Assembly: GCA_020444065.1 (NCBI GenBank)
Contig: JAHLLQ010000002.1
Location: 496,001-560,000, forward strand
Origin: a bacterium
GTDB lineage: Bacteria > Sumerlaeota > Sumerlaeia > SLMS01 > JAHLLQ01
Reading direction: 5' to 3'
Length of the DNA: 64,000 nucleotides
Shown here: positions 2,454-16,793 of the stretch, in pieces
Position numbering within the stretch: the first letter of the stretch is position 1
How the letters are laid out: every line of letters starts with the position of its first letter
Position numbers and translations under genes: made by a program
The notes under the pieces: model-generated
The model's input: the letters and a program-made list of their open reading frames with translations, nothing else
What the model was told of the DNA's origin: nothing
Databases searched by the model: none

Positions 2454-2495
2454 GAGCACGTATAGTGGCACGGCCTGGCCGTGGGAGCACAAGGA

Positions 2496-3029
2496 ATGGA
2501 TAAGGAAAAACTCATACTTCTTGGCAAGAAGTTGATGAAGCGGGCCGATCGCGTCGCGATCGTCCTGTTTCTTGCGCTCCTGCTCGCGACCGGCTACATC
2601 TGGTTCCGTGAGACGAACACGACGATCCCGCCCCCAGAGCCGACCCAGTTGAAGCCTTGGAACCAGGCCATCCCGAGCCCCGAATACGAGAATGTCGTCG
2701 ATCAATTGATGCAGGACCAGACCGACATCACTCAGGACCCGGATGTTCGGATTATCGTTCAGAATAATATGTTCGACTTGAAATCGGTCCGGAGTCAGGC
2801 CGAGCAGGAACGGCAGATTCGCCAGGACTATCAGGAAGCGGAACGGATGTTCTTGAGTTCGGACTACGATGGAGCTCTTGAGCGTCTGAACACCATCCTG
2901 CAGCAGAATCCGAATCACACGAAGGCGTTGGAGTTGAAGCAACGGATTGAAGATGCGTTGGCGCCCCCGTCCGAAGGCGAAGCCGAGGGCACGGAAGGCG
3001 GCGACGCAGCAGCACCTCCCGAGGGCTGA
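2496..3029 (+). CDS. Single-pass membrane protein with TPR-like tail, secretin operon
   Basis: 177 residues. A basic cytoplasmic start (KKLMKRADR) is followed by one membrane segment at about 19-36, a proline-rich stretch, and a C-terminal region resembling a tetratricopeptide unit (NPNHTKALELKQRIEDAL), then a Glu/Gly/Ala-rich tail. Start ATG 2496 is chosen over an upstream in-frame GTG (2481) because GGGAG lies 8 bases before it. It sits between the PilM-PilN fusion and the secretin, where pilO and pilP would lie in standard pilus operons. It is not recognisably homologous to them, but its topology would suit a PilP/GspC-like link to the secretin. Function is inferred from position only. Confidence 0.65.
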   Translation: MDKEKLILLGKKLMKRADRVAIVLFLALLLATGYIWFRETNTTIPPPEPTQLKPWNQAIPSPEYENVVDQLMQDQTDITQDPDVRIIVQNNMFDLKSVRSQAEQERQIRQDYQEAERMFLSSDYDGALERLNTILQQNPNHTKALELKQRIEDALAPPSEGEAEGTEGGDAAAPPEG

Positions 3030-3177
3030 TTTCGGCCCGCTGGAGCATTGAAAACGGGGTCTGATGACCCCAATGTCCCCTGACTGTCAGCTTGACACCC
3101 TCTGACCGGAGGGGGATGCGTTCCTGTAAGCCTTACTGTTGTCAGGAGCGACCTATCTCAGGAGAGCGACAGATCCT
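3030..3177 (+). other. Intercistronic gap with two small hairpins
   Basis: Short stems are visible at 3056-3071 (ggggtc-tgat-gacccc) and 3098-3113 (ccctc...gaggg). Neither is followed by a T run, so these are not ordinary terminators. They may tune expression of the secretin relative to the two upstream genes. Confidence 0.3.
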
Positions 3178-6100
3178 ATGAGTCGGCACGTATCCAAAAG
3201 GTCTCTGATCACCCTCGGCCAGGGCGCTTGCGTGGCGCTGCTGGCGGCGGGCCTGGCTTGTTCCAGCGCCCAGAAGTCCACGTCCAGCGGCAAGGCTGAG
3301 CGGCCCGCGTCCCAAGCGGCGCTGGCCCAGTTGCCACCCGCGGCACAGCTCGAAGCCAAGCTCGATGCGGCCATGGAAGAGCTCAAGAAAGAGCACTTCG
3401 ATGCCGCCCGTGAGCTGGTTCGACAGGCCGAGGCGCTGAAGCCGGGAGATTCGAAGATCAAAGAACTGAAGGCTCGCATCGATCGCGAGGAGAAGGAATT
3501 CCGCATCGAGCAGCGCCAGGACGAGATCGACGATGCCCTTTCCAACGCGAAGAAGGCGTTGAAGGCCAACGATTTCGACCAGGCCGAGCGCTATGTCCGT
3601 CAGGCCCTCGAGCTTGACCAGGGCAACAAGAAAGCATCCAAGCTGCTGGCCGATATTAAAGATGAACGTGCCGAGTATCAGGCCGAGCGGCTCGAAGATG
3701 CCGTCGAAGAGCGCATCGACATGGCCGAAGAGGCCATCGACGCCAAGAAATTCGACGTCGCCCTTAAGCACTACGAAAAGGCGGTCGAGCTCTCCCAGGG
3801 CAATGCCGCGTTCAAGGATGACTTGAACGATCTGCGGGCCGACATTCAGAAGGAACAGGCCGAGTACGAAAGCGCCAAGGTCGCCGACAAAGTCGACGCT
3901 CTCCTGGAAAAGGCCGAGGCGGAACTGAAAGCGAACAATTTCGAGCGCGCTCGCACTGCCGTGCAGGAAGCATACGCCCTCGACAAGAATAACAAAGACG
4001 TCGTCGATCTGCGTGGCGACATCGACGAAGCCGAGAAGCAGTTTAAGATGGAGGCGATCGATCGCCGCATCGACCAGGCCCTTGACCGCGCCGTCTCCCT
4101 CTACAAAGCCGACAAGTACGAAGAATCCATCGCCGCGTTCGAAGACGTTCTGAAGATCGACTCCGGCAACGCCGAAGCCAAGAAGTACATCGATCGGGCG
4201 AAGAAGAACATCGCCGCGATGAAGGCCGATGCCGCCGGCGAGAAGGTCGATGGTGCACTTGCCAAGGCTGAGCGTCTCTATGATGCCGGCAAGTATGAAG
4301 AAGCCATCGCTGCCTACGAAGACGTGCTGGCGATTGACAAGGGCAATTCCGACGCGCGCAAGATGATTGCCCGCGCCAAGAACGCGATCGCCGAACGCCA
4401 GTCCGAGAAGGCTGACGAACTGGTGACCAGCGCCGAACGCCTGATGAAGCGCGGCGATTATGAAGCTGCCCTCAGCCAGTTGGAAGAAGCCAAGAAGCTG
4501 GATCCGGAATCGAAGAAGGTCTCTTCGACCATGAACGATGTACGCAAGGCCATGGCCGAAGCGGAGAAGAAGGCTGCCAAGCCGGTTGCAACGCCGAAGC
4601 CGGTCGAAGTGGCCCAGGCCGTCAAGACTCCGAAGCCGACTCCCGCTCCAACCCCCGAGCCGACCGTCGCCCGGACACCGAAGCCGACTCCCGAACCCAC
4701 CCCGGCGCCGACCGCGAAGCCCGAGCGCAAGCCGACTCGCCCGGAGAAGACCCCGACCGCTCGCGCGAACGAGACAAGCGCTGCCGACAAGGCTGCAGAG
4801 GCTGCCGCCAAGAAGGCTCGTGAAGAGAAGCAGCGCATGTTCGACGATCGGTTGGAGAAGGCCGAAGATCTGATCAAAGACGGCGAGTTCGCTCAGGCCG
4901 AGTCAGTGTTGAACGAAGCCCGCGCCATGGATGTGGATGCAGGCGAAGTTGCCAAGATGGAGCGCGAACTCGAATCGTCCCGCAAGCGCGCCCAATCCCA
5001 GGCCTTCGATAAGGCTCTGGACCGTGCACAGAAGCTTGCTGAGAATGAAAACTACGACGAGGCCCTTGCGGCTCTCGCCGAAATCGAAGCGACCTATCCC
5101 GATCGCGCCGCCGCCATTCAGGGCGTGCGCAAGAGCGTCGAAAACGACCGCGAGCGGGCGATGGCCGCCATGCGCGAGCGTGAAATGCGTGAACAGCGTG
5201 CCGAAGCCCGCCAGATGTTCGAGGAAGGCGTTCGAATCTACGAGCGCGACCAGGAGGATCTGGAGAATCTCGAGAACGCTCGCCAGAAGTGGATCGGTGC
5301 TCTTGAAATCGATCCCGATTATCGTCAGCCTGCCGTTTACCTTGAGCAGACTGAGAAGGCATTCAACGAGATGATGGCCGAGCGTCAGGCTCAGCGCGAC
5401 TTCCAGGAGCGCGAAGCCGCAGCCATCGAGAAGATGAACACGCAGATTCCGATCAGTACCCTCGAACCGACTCCGCTTGCAGACTTCTTGCATCACCTTC
5501 GTCTGCTTTCCGGAATCGATTTCGTGCTGGCCGGCGGTGTGGATGCCCGCATCCAGGCCGCGTTCACCGACAAGCCACTTCATGAAGTGCTCGATGCCGT
5601 CCTACTGCCTATCGGTCTGAAGTGGGAACGCCGTCCGGGCGAAGACGTTGTCGTTATCACCCCGGACCTGCGCACGCAGATCTTCAAGGTCACGCCGGAG
5701 CAGGTGAAGACCATCGACTCGCTGCTGGATCGCGGTACGCTGCAGAATCTCCTCTACGGCGAGGGCGGTCAGCCCGTCCTTGAAGGCCAGGAAATCTACA
5801 CCGACCAGCGCCAGAACGTCGTCGTCATCACCGACTCCTCGAAGAATATTGAGAAGTTCAGTCAGTTGATCACGGAGTTGGAGTCCCAGGACACCGTCGG
5901 CCTCGTCTTCAAGAGCTACATCATCAAGGAAGACAAGGCTGCCCAGGTGAAGGCGCTGCTGGAAGCGATCCTTCGCGCCGACGACCAGGCTCCTTACAAC
6001 CCCGAGCGCAAGCTGATCGTCGAGGGCGGCGAGCTGATCATCAAGGACACGCCCGAGAACATTCGCAAGGTCGAGGAGATCCTTCAGGATCGCCAGTTCC

Positions 6101-7809
6101 TGCGCCAGATCTACAGCAACAAGCTGAGCGTGGCGACATTCAACCTGACTCCGATTCTCGACATCCAGGAGAACCCCGATCTGGCCCGTCAGTTCGGCGA
6201 GAACGTCAGAATCGTCGTCGAGACGCTCCTGTACGCGCAGGAAGGTCGCAGCAAGGCCATGCGCGAAGGCCGTCGCCTGTGGTATGACGAAGCGACGTTG
6301 CAGTTGACCATCACCGACTATCCGGACCGTCTTCAGATGGTCGAGGAGTTCATCGAGAGCCTGCCGCAGATCGAACGGAAGTCTCGTTCGAAGATCATCT
6401 TCTTGAACTGGGCGACAGCTTCGGAGCTCTCCACCCAGATCCAGACGTTCCTCGGCGGCGTTGCTACCACGGCTTCAGAAACAGGTGGCAACTCGATCAC
6501 CAAGACAATGCGTGTGGAAGGCGAGCTTGAGTTCCAGGGCGCTTACTTCCGCGTCACCCGCGTCAATGAGAACGATGAAGCCGACGATAATGACGACTCC
6601 GTCGAACTCGTCGTCCGCACTGGCACCACCAGCCAGGACGTCACAATCGACGAGTTCCGTTCGGACTTCATCGAGGACTTTGAAATCGTCGCTGAAGACG
6701 TTGATCCTTCGGGCACGCCTGGTGAAGGCCGCGCCAAGCTGACCATTCGGTACGTGCCCGGCGGTGAGTCCAGTGCGAGCAATGAACCGACTCCGACGCC
6801 GGTCCCCGCTCCCGAGCGTACTGAAGATCAGGGCATCAGCATCGAGCCCATCGATAATCTCAATGCCCTTTGGCTGCAGTACCAGAGCGCGAGCGATCTG
6901 AAGGAAGTCGAGTTCTGGATCCAGACTCTCGACGTTCCGACACTGCAGGTCTCTCTCGAAATCAAGTTCGTCGAAGTCGTCGAGAACAAGGCCAAGCAGT
7001 TGAAGTCCGACTTCACGATTGGCAACCTGGCCGATGGCGTGTCGCTCTCCGACAGCATCGTGCGCAGTCGCTTTGCCCAGGACATGGACGAGTTCATGAA
7101 CCCGTTCGAGCCGTTCCTGGAGACCGCGGGTAGCGCCAACTTGCTGAAGGGTGCCACGGTGACCAGTTGGATCATCAACAACGGCAAGTCGCCCATCTCT
7201 CTGACCCTGAGTGCCCTCGAAGCCCAGGGCGTGATCAACGTGGTCAACGCGCCGTCGATCACCGTGATCACCGGCGAGACGGCCACCTTCGACATCACGC
7301 GCGAGTTCGCAGGCGCCGGCACAACGACAGCCGGAGGTACCACCACTGGCGGTACCACAAACGACAACGACAATACCGATCAGATCGACACAGTGCAGCT
7401 CGAGGTCAGCCCGACAGTCACCCAGGCCGGCAATATTACTCTCGACCCGATCTCTGTCGAAATCGTCGACCTCGATCAGAACCTTGCTGGATTGCAGAGT
7501 CTAACCGATGCACTCGGTGGCAATGAAGAAGATGTAACCGGCGGCTTCTCCGACATCTACACCGCGGCGATCACGAGCGGTGGCATTGGCACGATCCGGA
7601 AGGAAATCGAGACCATCGCCCGCATCCGCGACGGAGGCACGGTGGTCCTCGGTGGCTGGCGCAACGAGCGCATCCAGAAGCAGGATTCTGGCGTGCCCAT
7701 CCTGCGCGACATCCCGTGGGTCGGCAAGATCCTGTTCAACCGCAACCAGGAGACCAGCGACCGCATCACGCTGCTTGTCTTCCTCACCGGCTCGGTTGTT
7801 CGCGACTAA
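3178..7809 (+). CDS. Giant TPR-secretin outer-membrane lipoprotein
   Basis: 1543 residues (secretins are usually 600-900). A lipoprotein signal ends at LLAAGLAC with Cys28. Residues 55-455 hold about six helical TPR-like units of 55-63 residues. A Pro/Thr-rich linker (480-530) and more TPR-like helices (540-740) follow. From about 757 the chain becomes a secretin: an STN-type domain (DFLHHLRLLSGIDFVLAG), N-type modules, then the secretin core from about 1255, with GGTVVLGG at 1486 and VPILRDIPWVGKILF at about 1506. A Gly/Thr/Asn/Asp-rich insertion interrupts the core near 1377-1404. It should form the outer-membrane gate, with the TPR part acting as a built-in pilotin or assembly factor (inference). 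ATG 3178 is chosen because it gives a proper signal peptide and has AGGAG 13 bases upstream; an in-frame TTG at 3139 does not. Confidence 0.92.
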   Translation: MSRHVSKRSLITLGQGACVALLAAGLACSSAQKSTSSGKAERPASQAALAQLPPAAQLEAKLDAAMEELKKEHFDAARELVRQAEALKPGDSKIKELKARIDREEKEFRIEQRQDEIDDALSNAKKALKANDFDQAERYVRQALELDQGNKKASKLLADIKDERAEYQAERLEDAVEERIDMAEEAIDAKKFDVALKHYEKAVELSQGNAAFKDDLNDLRADIQKEQAEYESAKVADKVDALLEKAEAELKANNFERARTAVQEAYALDKNNKDVVDLRGDIDEAEKQFKMEAIDRRIDQALDRAVSLYKADKYEESIAAFEDVLKIDSGNAEAKKYIDRAKKNIAAMKADAAGEKVDGALAKAERLYDAGKYEEAIAAYEDVLAIDKGNSDARKMIARAKNAIAERQSEKADELVTSAERLMKRGDYEAALSQLEEAKKLDPESKKVSSTMNDVRKAMAEAEKKAAKPVATPKPVEVAQAVKTPKPTPAPTPEPTVARTPKPTPEPTPAPTAKPERKPTRPEKTPTARANETSAADKAAEAAAKKAREEKQRMFDDRLEKAEDLIKDGEFAQAESVLNEARAMDVDAGEVAKMERELESSRKRAQSQAFDKALDRAQKLAENENYDEALAALAEIEATYPDRAAAIQGVRKSVENDRERAMAAMREREMREQRAEARQMFEEGVRIYERDQEDLENLENARQKWIGALEIDPDYRQPAVYLEQTEKAFNEMMAERQAQRDFQEREAAAIEKMNTQIPISTLEPTPLADFLHHLRLLSGIDFVLAGGVDARIQAAFTDKPLHEVLDAVLLPIGLKWERRPGEDVVVITPDLRTQIFKVTPEQVKTIDSLLDRGTLQNLLYGEGGQPVLEGQEIYTDQRQNVVVITDSSKNIEKFSQLITELESQDTVGLVFKSYIIKEDKAAQVKALLEAILRADDQAPYNPERKLIVEGGELIIKDTPENIRKVEEILQDRQFLRQIYSNKLSVATFNLTPILDIQENPDLARQFGENVRIVVETLLYAQEGRSKAMREGRRLWYDEATLQLTITDYPDRLQMVEEFIESLPQIERKSRSKIIFLNWATASELSTQIQTFLGGVATTASETGGNSITKTMRVEGELEFQGAYFRVTRVNENDEADDNDDSVELVVRTGTTSQDVTIDEFRSDFIEDFEIVAEDVDPSGTPGEGRAKLTIRYVPGGESSASNEPTPTPVPAPERTEDQGISIEPIDNLNALWLQYQSASDLKEVEFWIQTLDVPTLQVSLEIKFVEVVENKAKQLKSDFTIGNLADGVSLSDSIVRSRFAQDMDEFMNPFEPFLETAGSANLLKGATVTSWIINNGKSPISLTLSALEAQGVINVVNAPSITVITGETATFDITREFAGAGTTTAGGTTTGGTTNDNDNTDQIDTVQLEVSPTVTQAGNITLDPISVEIVDLDQNLAGLQSLTDALGGNEEDVTGGFSDIYTAAITSGGIGTIRKEIETIARIRDGGTVVLGGWRNERIQKQDSGVPILRDIPWVGKILFNRNQETSDRITLLVFLTGSVVRD
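3550..4530 (+). repeat. Tandem TPR-coding repeats, period 162-189 bp
   Basis: Six related units begin near 3556, 3739, 3928, 4105, 4282 and 4444. Two adjacent ones are very alike: DKYEESIAAFEDVLKID and GKYEEAIAAYEDVLAID, 177-180 bp apart. The period of about 59 residues is longer than the 34 of a simple TPR, so each unit is a TPR plus an extra helix. Confidence 0.7.
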
Positions 7810-14468: not shown

Positions 14469-16793
14469 TCACTGCATCGCGCGCCACGTTTCCACGCGAT
14501 AGCGGAATGTCACCGGACGCAGCGCCCGGTTGTGCGGCGAGCGTGGGCTGAGCCCACCGAAGAGCATCGCTTCCATTAGCGATCCCGGCGCCAGCACAAC
14601 ATACGACGAACGCTCGAACACACGATCCGACTCCAGGCGATACCGAGGCGCGGTGTCAGCCGTTCCGTAGAGCGTCATCATCATGTGCAACTCGCCGTCA
14701 TCCCCTCGAACAGCCGGCGCGACGACATGACTGCGATTCAGCAAGTACCGCGAGAGCAACGTCGGCGAAAAGGAATCGGGCCTGAGTTGCGCTTCAACAC
14801 GTACATGATCGCCATTCACTGCGAACGGGCTTGCCAGGCGAATGAACGTCTTGTTCGTATTCATCCGCGGCAGAAGATCCCCACGATACCACGTCCGGGC
14901 GCGCAGCCCGCTCTCATCGAAGAATGACAGTTCCATTTCCGAACGCGCAGGCCACGACGCCACATCTGCGCGGAACTCGATGCCCGTGATTGTCATCCCC
15001 GGCGATGTCTTCATGTCGCGGGCCCAGACCTCGCCCCGATACAAGCCAACGACGCCATCCATCTCTTCTTCTGCAGTTATTGGTTCGCTGACCCAGCCTG
15101 CCACGACCGGCGGAACCACGCGCGAGCCCCAGTGGTTCTCGTGGGAGAAGACCAGGAATAGGTCCTCGGGCTTCATCTCCGGCTGCGACTGGAACGGCTC
15201 GAACTGAACCTTCTCTGCAATGCCCGAAGTGCGGAAGAACGCCGCCGTCTGAACCCAGGGCTCCTCGAAGTGATTCGTGTAGAGCACACACGGGCCCGCT
15301 TCGCTCTCCGCCAGATGCCTGCCGGCCTCCAGCAATTGCGATGTCGCCTGTTCGCACGCCGTGTACTGCTCGGCATTCTGATGCGCGTAGGCCACGAGGC
15401 AGATTCCATGGATGAGTTCGAGGCCGAAAAACAGCCCGATGACGATCGCCAGCAGGGGAGCGGCGCGCCGGGGCTGCTTGCGCCACAGAAGCCATCCGAG
15501 AAGAGCGGCCGAACCTACGCCACCCACGCCCATCATCGGTACGTGACGCAGTAACGTCGGACGCTGCCACAAGATAATCGGAACGCACGCCAGGGCCAGG
15601 ACAACGGCGCCGATCGCAGCGGCCAGCACAAGAGTCCCGTTCGGCCGTGCAAAACGCGTTCTCACCTGCTGGACGGCGGTGCGCCACAGATCTTCGCAGA
15701 ACACCCCCGCCAGCACCGCGACGAATGGCGTGTAGATCACCATGTAGCGCTGCAGCGTGATGCTCCACATTGTCAGCAGACAGAATGCCGCGCTGCCCAT
15801 CCCGAGCGTGATTGCGTAGAACTCGAAATCGCGAAGGTTCGTTCGGCCCAGCAACCCCCGCAAGAACTGCCAGGCTGCCACAGGGATCGCGACAAAGACC
15901 AGCGGGCCCCAGGCCTCCAGGAACGTCATCGAAGCGTAACCGATCGATCCGCTGATCACGTTCCAACTGAAGGAGAGCTCACCATCATACCAGTAGATTT
16001 CGCGTGTCGCCCACGGTTTGAAGTACATCAGCCCCGGAATCGAGACGACGATCAGTACCGCGGCCAGCCATAGCGTTCCGGCCGGCCATCGTTTGCCCGA
16101 TCGGCTCCGCCACGCGATCAAAGCAAGCGCCACGACCGCTCCGCCGAGATGCGCCACCGCGCTGATCTTTGTCAGGGCGGCGATCGCCATGCAGAGGGCG
16201 GCCACGACTCCCCACACGATGCGACGCACGCCGCAGGAGCGAAGGAAGTGCAGCAGCGCAACCGCCATCCAGGCGACTACCCATGCGAAGTATGAATCGG
16301 TTGTGTGAAGGCGCTGCCAATTGGCGAAGTGCGTCTGGAAGTCCGGGAACAGCGAGGGTCTTGCCAGCAGCGTGAAGACAAGGGCGGCGGCGGCACCTGC
16401 CCACGGCCCGCGCCTGCCGAGTCGGACAAGCTCCATGATACCGCCCACGGCCACGGCGAAGAACAGGATCTTGATTCCATGCAGCAGAGCGGGATCCAGC
16501 CCTCCGAAGCCGTGATACAGGAGCAGTTGCAAAAAAAGCCCCGGACCGAACCGATTGTCGGAGGGCGTCCAGAAGAGATCCCAGAACGCGCCGAACTGGC
16601 CACTGCCCAGCGCGGCAAACATCTTCTGCGCCCGCTCGTAAAACAGCCCATCATCGATCAATGACATCGGCAGGAAGAGCGTGTGTCCATAGAAGGCCAG
16701 CGCCAGTGCCACGGGAAAGAGCACGCGGAACCAGACCGGCCAGCGTGGCCGTTCGTGGAAGAGATCAGGGATGGCGCGTTCGTTTCTCATCAT
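14469..16793 (-). CDS. Multi-pass membrane protein, GT-C glycosyltransferase-like
   Basis: 774 residues with around ten hydrophobic segments in the first 470, then a soluble region of about 300 residues. After the first membrane segment comes SLIDDGLFYERAQKM, an acidic pair typical of the first periplasmic loop of GT-C enzymes (dolichyl- or polyprenyl-phosphate sugar dependent). Later loops contain TDSYFAWVVAW. The predicted role is transfer of a lipid-linked sugar at the outer face of the inner membrane, but the family cannot be named more closely. The C-terminal part is beta-rich and unassigned. The start is one of two adjacent ATGs at 16793. Divergent from the rhomboid gene across about 100 bases. 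Confidence 0.7.
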   Translation of the reverse strand: MMRNERAIPDLFHERPRWPVWFRVLFPVALALAFYGHTLFLPMSLIDDGLFYERAQKMFAALGSGQFGAFWDLFWTPSDNRFGPGLFLQLLLYHGFGGLDPALLHGIKILFFAVAVGGIMELVRLGRRGPWAGAAAALVFTLLARPSLFPDFQTHFANWQRLHTTDSYFAWVVAWMAVALLHFLRSCGVRRIVWGVVAALCMAIAALTKISAVAHLGGAVVALALIAWRSRSGKRWPAGTLWLAAVLIVVSIPGLMYFKPWATREIYWYDGELSFSWNVISGSIGYASMTFLEAWGPLVFVAIPVAAWQFLRGLLGRTNLRDFEFYAITLGMGSAAFCLLTMWSITLQRYMVIYTPFVAVLAGVFCEDLWRTAVQQVRTRFARPNGTLVLAAAIGAVVLALACVPIILWQRPTLLRHVPMMGVGGVGSAALLGWLLWRKQPRRAAPLLAIVIGLFFGLELIHGICLVAYAHQNAEQYTACEQATSQLLEAGRHLAESEAGPCVLYTNHFEEPWVQTAAFFRTSGIAEKVQFEPFQSQPEMKPEDLFLVFSHENHWGSRVVPPVVAGWVSEPITAEEEMDGVVGLYRGEVWARDMKTSPGMTITGIEFRADVASWPARSEMELSFFDESGLRARTWYRGDLLPRMNTNKTFIRLASPFAVNGDHVRVEAQLRPDSFSPTLLSRYLLNRSHVVAPAVRGDDGELHMMMTLYGTADTAPRYRLESDRVFERSSYVVLAPGSLMEAMLFGGLSPRSPHNRALRPVTFRYRVETWRAMQ

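Follow-up and report, generated by a model that had tools for sequence, protein, structure and literature searches.

What the N-terminal half of an unusually long secretin does is the question raised by a locus in a 64,000-nucleotide stretch of the genome of an uncultured Sumerlaeota bacterium, hereafter the window. The protein joins TPR-like helices to a secretin in a single chain, and the helices could be a built-in pilotin or a structural part of the machine. An AGGAG at 3160 lies 5' of the start codon, and the open frame bears out the coordinates and length given in the first-pass annotation. The gene, its parts, and its two upstream neighbours are arranged as follows.

630 to 2453, + strand: PilM-PilN fusion protein (PilMN), 607 aa (Pfam PilM_2 and PilN)
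2481 to 3029, + strand: small protein P182, probably starting at ATG 2496, with a single TM helix, a motif resembling NMFDxKSV, and a single TPR-like hairpin
3178 to 7809, + strand: TPR-secretin gene, 1543 aa in one unbroken frame from ATG 3178
3178 to 3261, + strand: signal peptide (residues 1-27) and probable lipidation Cys28 (AGLAC-SS), from the sequence motif
3340 to 4578, + strand: seven 59-residue TPR-like units (residues 55-467), from autocorrelation, Pfam TPR matches, and predicted helices
4579 to 4767, + strand: Pro/Thr/Lys-rich flexible linker (residues ~468-530), from the sequence and a low-confidence coil in the model
4774 to 5436, + strand: predicted second helical region with TPR-like hairpins (residues ~533-753), from the models and a TPR-like match from residue 610
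5443 to 5688, + strand: predicted N0-like domain (residues ~756-837), from the predicted strand/helix order
5695 to 6360, + strand: predicted N1/N2-type ring-building domains (residues ~840-1061), from a Secretin_N match and predicted beta-alpha-beta-beta-alpha units
6385 to 6930, + strand: predicted last N-domain (residues 1070-1251), from the structure model
6493 to 6753, + strand: predicted beta-rich insert in the last N-domain (residues 1106-1192), from the model and a conserved motif
7213 to 7803, + strand: C-terminal secretin domain (residues 1346-1542), Pfam PF00263

The PF00263 match (94.1 bits against a cut-off of 27.5, E 9.7e-27) places the protein in the secretin superfamily. The Pfam scan also found Secretin_N at residues 855-904 and several TPR models, and its layout has no S-domain tail after the C-terminal secretin domain. 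The model of residues 600-1543 (pLDDT 74, pTM 0.31), weaker than that of the N-terminal rod described below, contains N0 and N1-type domains, the insert, and the secretin strands. With Foldseek, this model retrieved T2SS and T3SS secretins first, and PilQ was also significant. Predicted N0-like strands start at about residue 756 (base 5443), in agreement with the boundary near 5.4 kb that had been proposed. The fusion of a TPR half to the secretin also stood, but the single TPR array of about 700 residues gave way to seven units, a linker in which 19 of 60 residues are Pro, and a further helical region. The insert, for which no Pfam family is reported, bears an acidic motif, RVTRVNENDxNDxNDDS, conserved across Sumerlaeota.

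The best matches to this protein in named genomes are from Candidatus Sumerlaeota. A search for the TPR-secretin found matches in 40 of 41 genomes (its own and those of relatives), a few of them only partial. Each of the 18 full-length sequences that were aligned (the window and 17 Sumerlaeota relatives) has the TPRs and the secretin joined in a single frame, and G039, which is more distantly related within the phylum, has a similar frame of 1414 aa. Among the orthologues, the N-terminal part is anywhere between 295 and 1083 residues long, with 16-31% identity, and the secretin part stays within 852-919 residues at 35-63% identity. A free length in the former and a fixed one in the latter are what a spacer or scaffold would be expected to show.

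The N-terminal part itself, the arm, gave no clean register in a scan for the 34-residue TPR motif, and the repeat period was taken from autocorrelation instead. The mean BLOSUM62 score at an offset of 59 was +1.00 over residues 55-467, and 300 shuffles gave nothing above 0.003 at any offset. This period is dominant in the window and in L036, from the same family; other orthologues show other periods or none that is strong. In the AlphaFold model of residues 29-560 (mean pLDDT 84), helices of ~38 and ~14 residues alternate, and the TPR-like repeats are predicted to form an extended rod whose inter-unit geometry is unsure (pTM 0.43). Foldseek returned local matches of the rod to TPR proteins. 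The 50 matches listed have query-normalised TM values no higher than 0.13, and their descriptions include no PilF, PilW, Tgl, or TadD.

The fused layout resembles a published one and is not a new system. Among described proteins, the closest is the Akkermansia PilQ, Amuc_1098. Ottman et al. reported in 2016 (PMC4960237) that it has three N-terminal TPRs fused to its secretin and compared these TPRs with pilotins, so that the idea of the first-pass annotation was already in print. The window secretin shares with Amuc_1098 (NF042912) the N-terminal TPRs, the C-terminal secretin, and a PilM homologue upstream. It differs in its size (1543 aa against 907 aa), its rod of 59-residue repeats, its Pro-rich linker, its lipobox, and the beta insert of the last N-domain. 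The N-terminal part alone has the Amuc_1098 model as its best NCBIfam match (E 3.5e-18, below the cut-off), a score to be read in the light of the resemblance of TPRs to one another. The whole protein scored 89.2 bits against NF042912 (cut-off 750), 105.2 bits against PilQ (TIGR02515, cut-off 284.35), and 138.1 bits, its best NCBIfam match, against GspD (TIGR02517, cut-off 351.35), and membership of all three families was rejected at these curated cut-offs. Four of the five TPR-secretins tested from Verrucomicrobia exceeded the Amuc_1098 cut-off, with 787-872 bits. These proteins are also encoded downstream of a PilM gene, and L073, L090, and L108 have two tandem TPR-secretin genes 3' of it. 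In a first secretin tree, which included the genome's other, long-branched secretins, the TPR groups were split. A tree without long branches placed the Sumerlaeota and PVC-type secretins on one side of a branch with weak support (87/59), so that a shared origin of the two fusions is no more than plausible.

The neighbourhood points to a pilus-type machine. PilMN exceeds the cut-off of the NCBIfam pilM model (149.7 bits, cut-off 133), and its top bit score is with the Amuc_1101 model, under that model's cut-off. The adjoining PilM/PilN platform genes that mark a type IV pilus machine are thus present at 630-2453. The order pilMN, P182, TPR-secretin is conserved in relatives, followed 3' by polA in many families and frequently also by coaE and rho. 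P182 has no Pfam family over the cut-off, and an equivalent ORF occurs in all 19 Sumerlaeota clusters inspected, its TM helix, NMFDxKSV-like motif, and TPR-like hairpin being kept throughout the phylum; it is the probable inner-membrane partner of the arm. Genes for a pilin or an ATPase were not seen next to the cluster. A minus-strand ORF at 312-1592 was rejected as a gene: it has no family match, and in relatives it is only a shadow of pilMN. Another minus-strand ORF of the window (14469-16793, 774 aa) has no Pfam match at E 0.01.

Elsewhere in the same genome there is a separate PilM-PilO-PilQ cluster, and the cluster of the window is therefore an additional system. Several type IV filament or secretion systems are present side by side in this genome, as shown by seven matches to secretins and no fewer than five to large PilB/GspE-type ATPases. 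The PilM/PilN neighbours and the separate PilM-PilO-PilQ cluster, together with the one-frame fusion, the conserved gene order, P182, the free length of the arm, the rod model, and the Amuc_1098 match of the N-terminal part, lead us towards a reading that we consider somewhat probable: the protein would form the outer-membrane channel for a second machine of the type IV pilus type, similar to that of Amuc_1098-1101, and would carry its own periplasmic scaffold. Against it count the lack of any pilin or ATPase gene seen beside the cluster, the unsure inter-unit geometry of both models (pTM 0.43 and 0.31), and the rank of GspD ahead of PilQ among the whole-protein matches, both far under their cut-offs.

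A secretin with its own pilotin, as the first-pass annotation had it, is a contender that we hold unlikely. The lipidated TPR part would replace PilF, PilW, Tgl, or TadD, providing delivery to the outer membrane by Lol as well as assembly. In the window's family, the TPR part and a lipobox do occur together, and the residue after the Cys is S, A, or T, not Asp, which fits sorting to the outer membrane. In E. coli, lipoproteins without Asp after the Cys generally go to that membrane. The cluster has no pilotin gene, the genome has no GspS/AspS-type pilotin (PF16549), and the secretin lacks the S-domain tail for pilotin binding. Besides the comparison made for Amuc_1098, there is a precedent in HxcQ of Pseudomonas aeruginosa, described in PMC4604470 as a lipoprotein secretin. 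The window secretin shares with it a lipoprotein signal, lipidation being only predicted here, and differs in having TPRs, of which the HxcQ passage in PMC4604470 makes no mention.

The lipobox and the arm themselves weigh on the other side. As judged from sequence, the protein has the Cys after the signal peptide of a lipo-secretin: the peptide ends in a lipobox-like AGLA-C28, whose Gly at -3 is permitted by the broad PROSITE-style pattern that was used and departs from the strict L/V/I consensus. Such a lipobox is found in 5/5 N-termini that could be read in the window's family (window, L036, L038, L155, and L156) and in 0/18 readable Sumerlaeota N-termini outside it, including five from the same order, with the start codon uncertain in a few distant members. 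This confinement makes lipidation look like an addition at the level of the family, and not a defining part of the machine. TPR-type helices are common to the arm and to PilF, PilW, Tgl, and TadD, as is a lipobox in the one family that has it. The arm differs from these in being fused, in its extended model, and in its 59-residue units with ~38-residue helices in place of contiguous 34-residue TPRs. Its length and sequence also drift fast. The PilW model (TIGR02521) gave the N-terminal part 14.7 bits (cut-off 154), no more than noise, and Tgl (NF033762) was not listed for it. No protein of the genome exceeds the cut-off of either model, and the window gene is absent from the genome's matches to them. 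A fused PilF or PilW is thus supported neither by sequence nor by the period.

The genome does encode a Tgl/PilW-like TPR lipoprotein (C6:263.5 kb, 207 aa, lipobox-like LLAGC, similarity to Tgl and PilW of 65 and 61 bits). Its gene overlaps that of a different, Tad-like secretin. At L145 (9502-11401), a Tgl/PilW-like TPR lipoprotein gene overlaps a short secretin gene without N-domain matches, likely a pair of the TadD-RcpA type. The pilotin reading is weaker because the anchor is found in one family, the arm is unlike PilF/PilW/Tgl, and such a lipoprotein exists in the genome. Of what the first-pass annotation had claimed, the TPR fusion holds and a lipid anchor is likely in this species, if limited to one family; the likeness to PilF, PilW, and Tgl fails in sequence and in predicted shape. 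A candidate for the separate pilotin that was to speak against it does exist in the genome, which counts in part against the reading, the gene lying beside another secretin.

It is quite improbable, in our view, that the protein is instead the secretin of a type II secretion-like exporter, whose arm would recruit or guide periplasmic substrates, as the TPR parts of BcsC and PgaA may do in polysaccharide export. The whole-protein match to GspD and the T2SS/T3SS secretins at the top of the Foldseek list would fit, and fusions of a periplasmic TPR part to an outer-membrane channel are known from BcsC and PgaA (PMC5638805, PMC9384988). The window secretin likewise has a TPR scaffold and an outer-membrane channel in one chain. 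In BcsC and PgaA, polysaccharide passes through a beta barrel made by one chain, where the window protein would form a secretin ring. An exporter is at odds with neighbours that are PilM/PilN homologues and with a GspD score so far under the cut-off (138 against 351 bits). Finally, a false joining of two genes near 5.4 kb during assembly or annotation, which had been named as fatal to the fusion, has a negligible probability, since the one-frame architecture recurs in 17 other, independent genomes from many families, and nothing was found in its favour.

Returning to the secretin of a second pilus-type machine, its N-terminal half may be a permanently attached periplasmic scaffold, with the 59-residue rod, the flexible linker, and the second helical segment set before the N0 ring. 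Each of the 12-15 subunits of the secretin ring would contribute one arm. The arms may cross the periplasm or line it, and may connect the channel with PilMN at the inner membrane and with P182, which, with its one TM helix, its one TPR-like hairpin, and its presence throughout the phylum, is a plausible partner of the arm. In the window's family, the arm would end in a probable lipid anchor that may help the secretin to reach the outer membrane and to stay there, as described for HxcQ. More speculatively, the secretin subunits of this one family, lipid-anchored at one end and pore-forming at the other, could build from their 12-15 rods a cage or sleeve through the periplasm that replaces pilotin and alignment proteins and docks on P182 by TPR-TPR contacts, which we think distinctly unlikely.

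The TPR-secretin layout described in Akkermansia is hence also found phylum-wide in Sumerlaeota. There the length of the arm varies freely, and this speaks for a scaffold or spacer rather than for a pilotin that has simply been fused to the secretin. With a probably lipidated arm in one family and unlipidated arms in its sisters, comparison can be used to test what a lipid anchor of its own does for a secretin.
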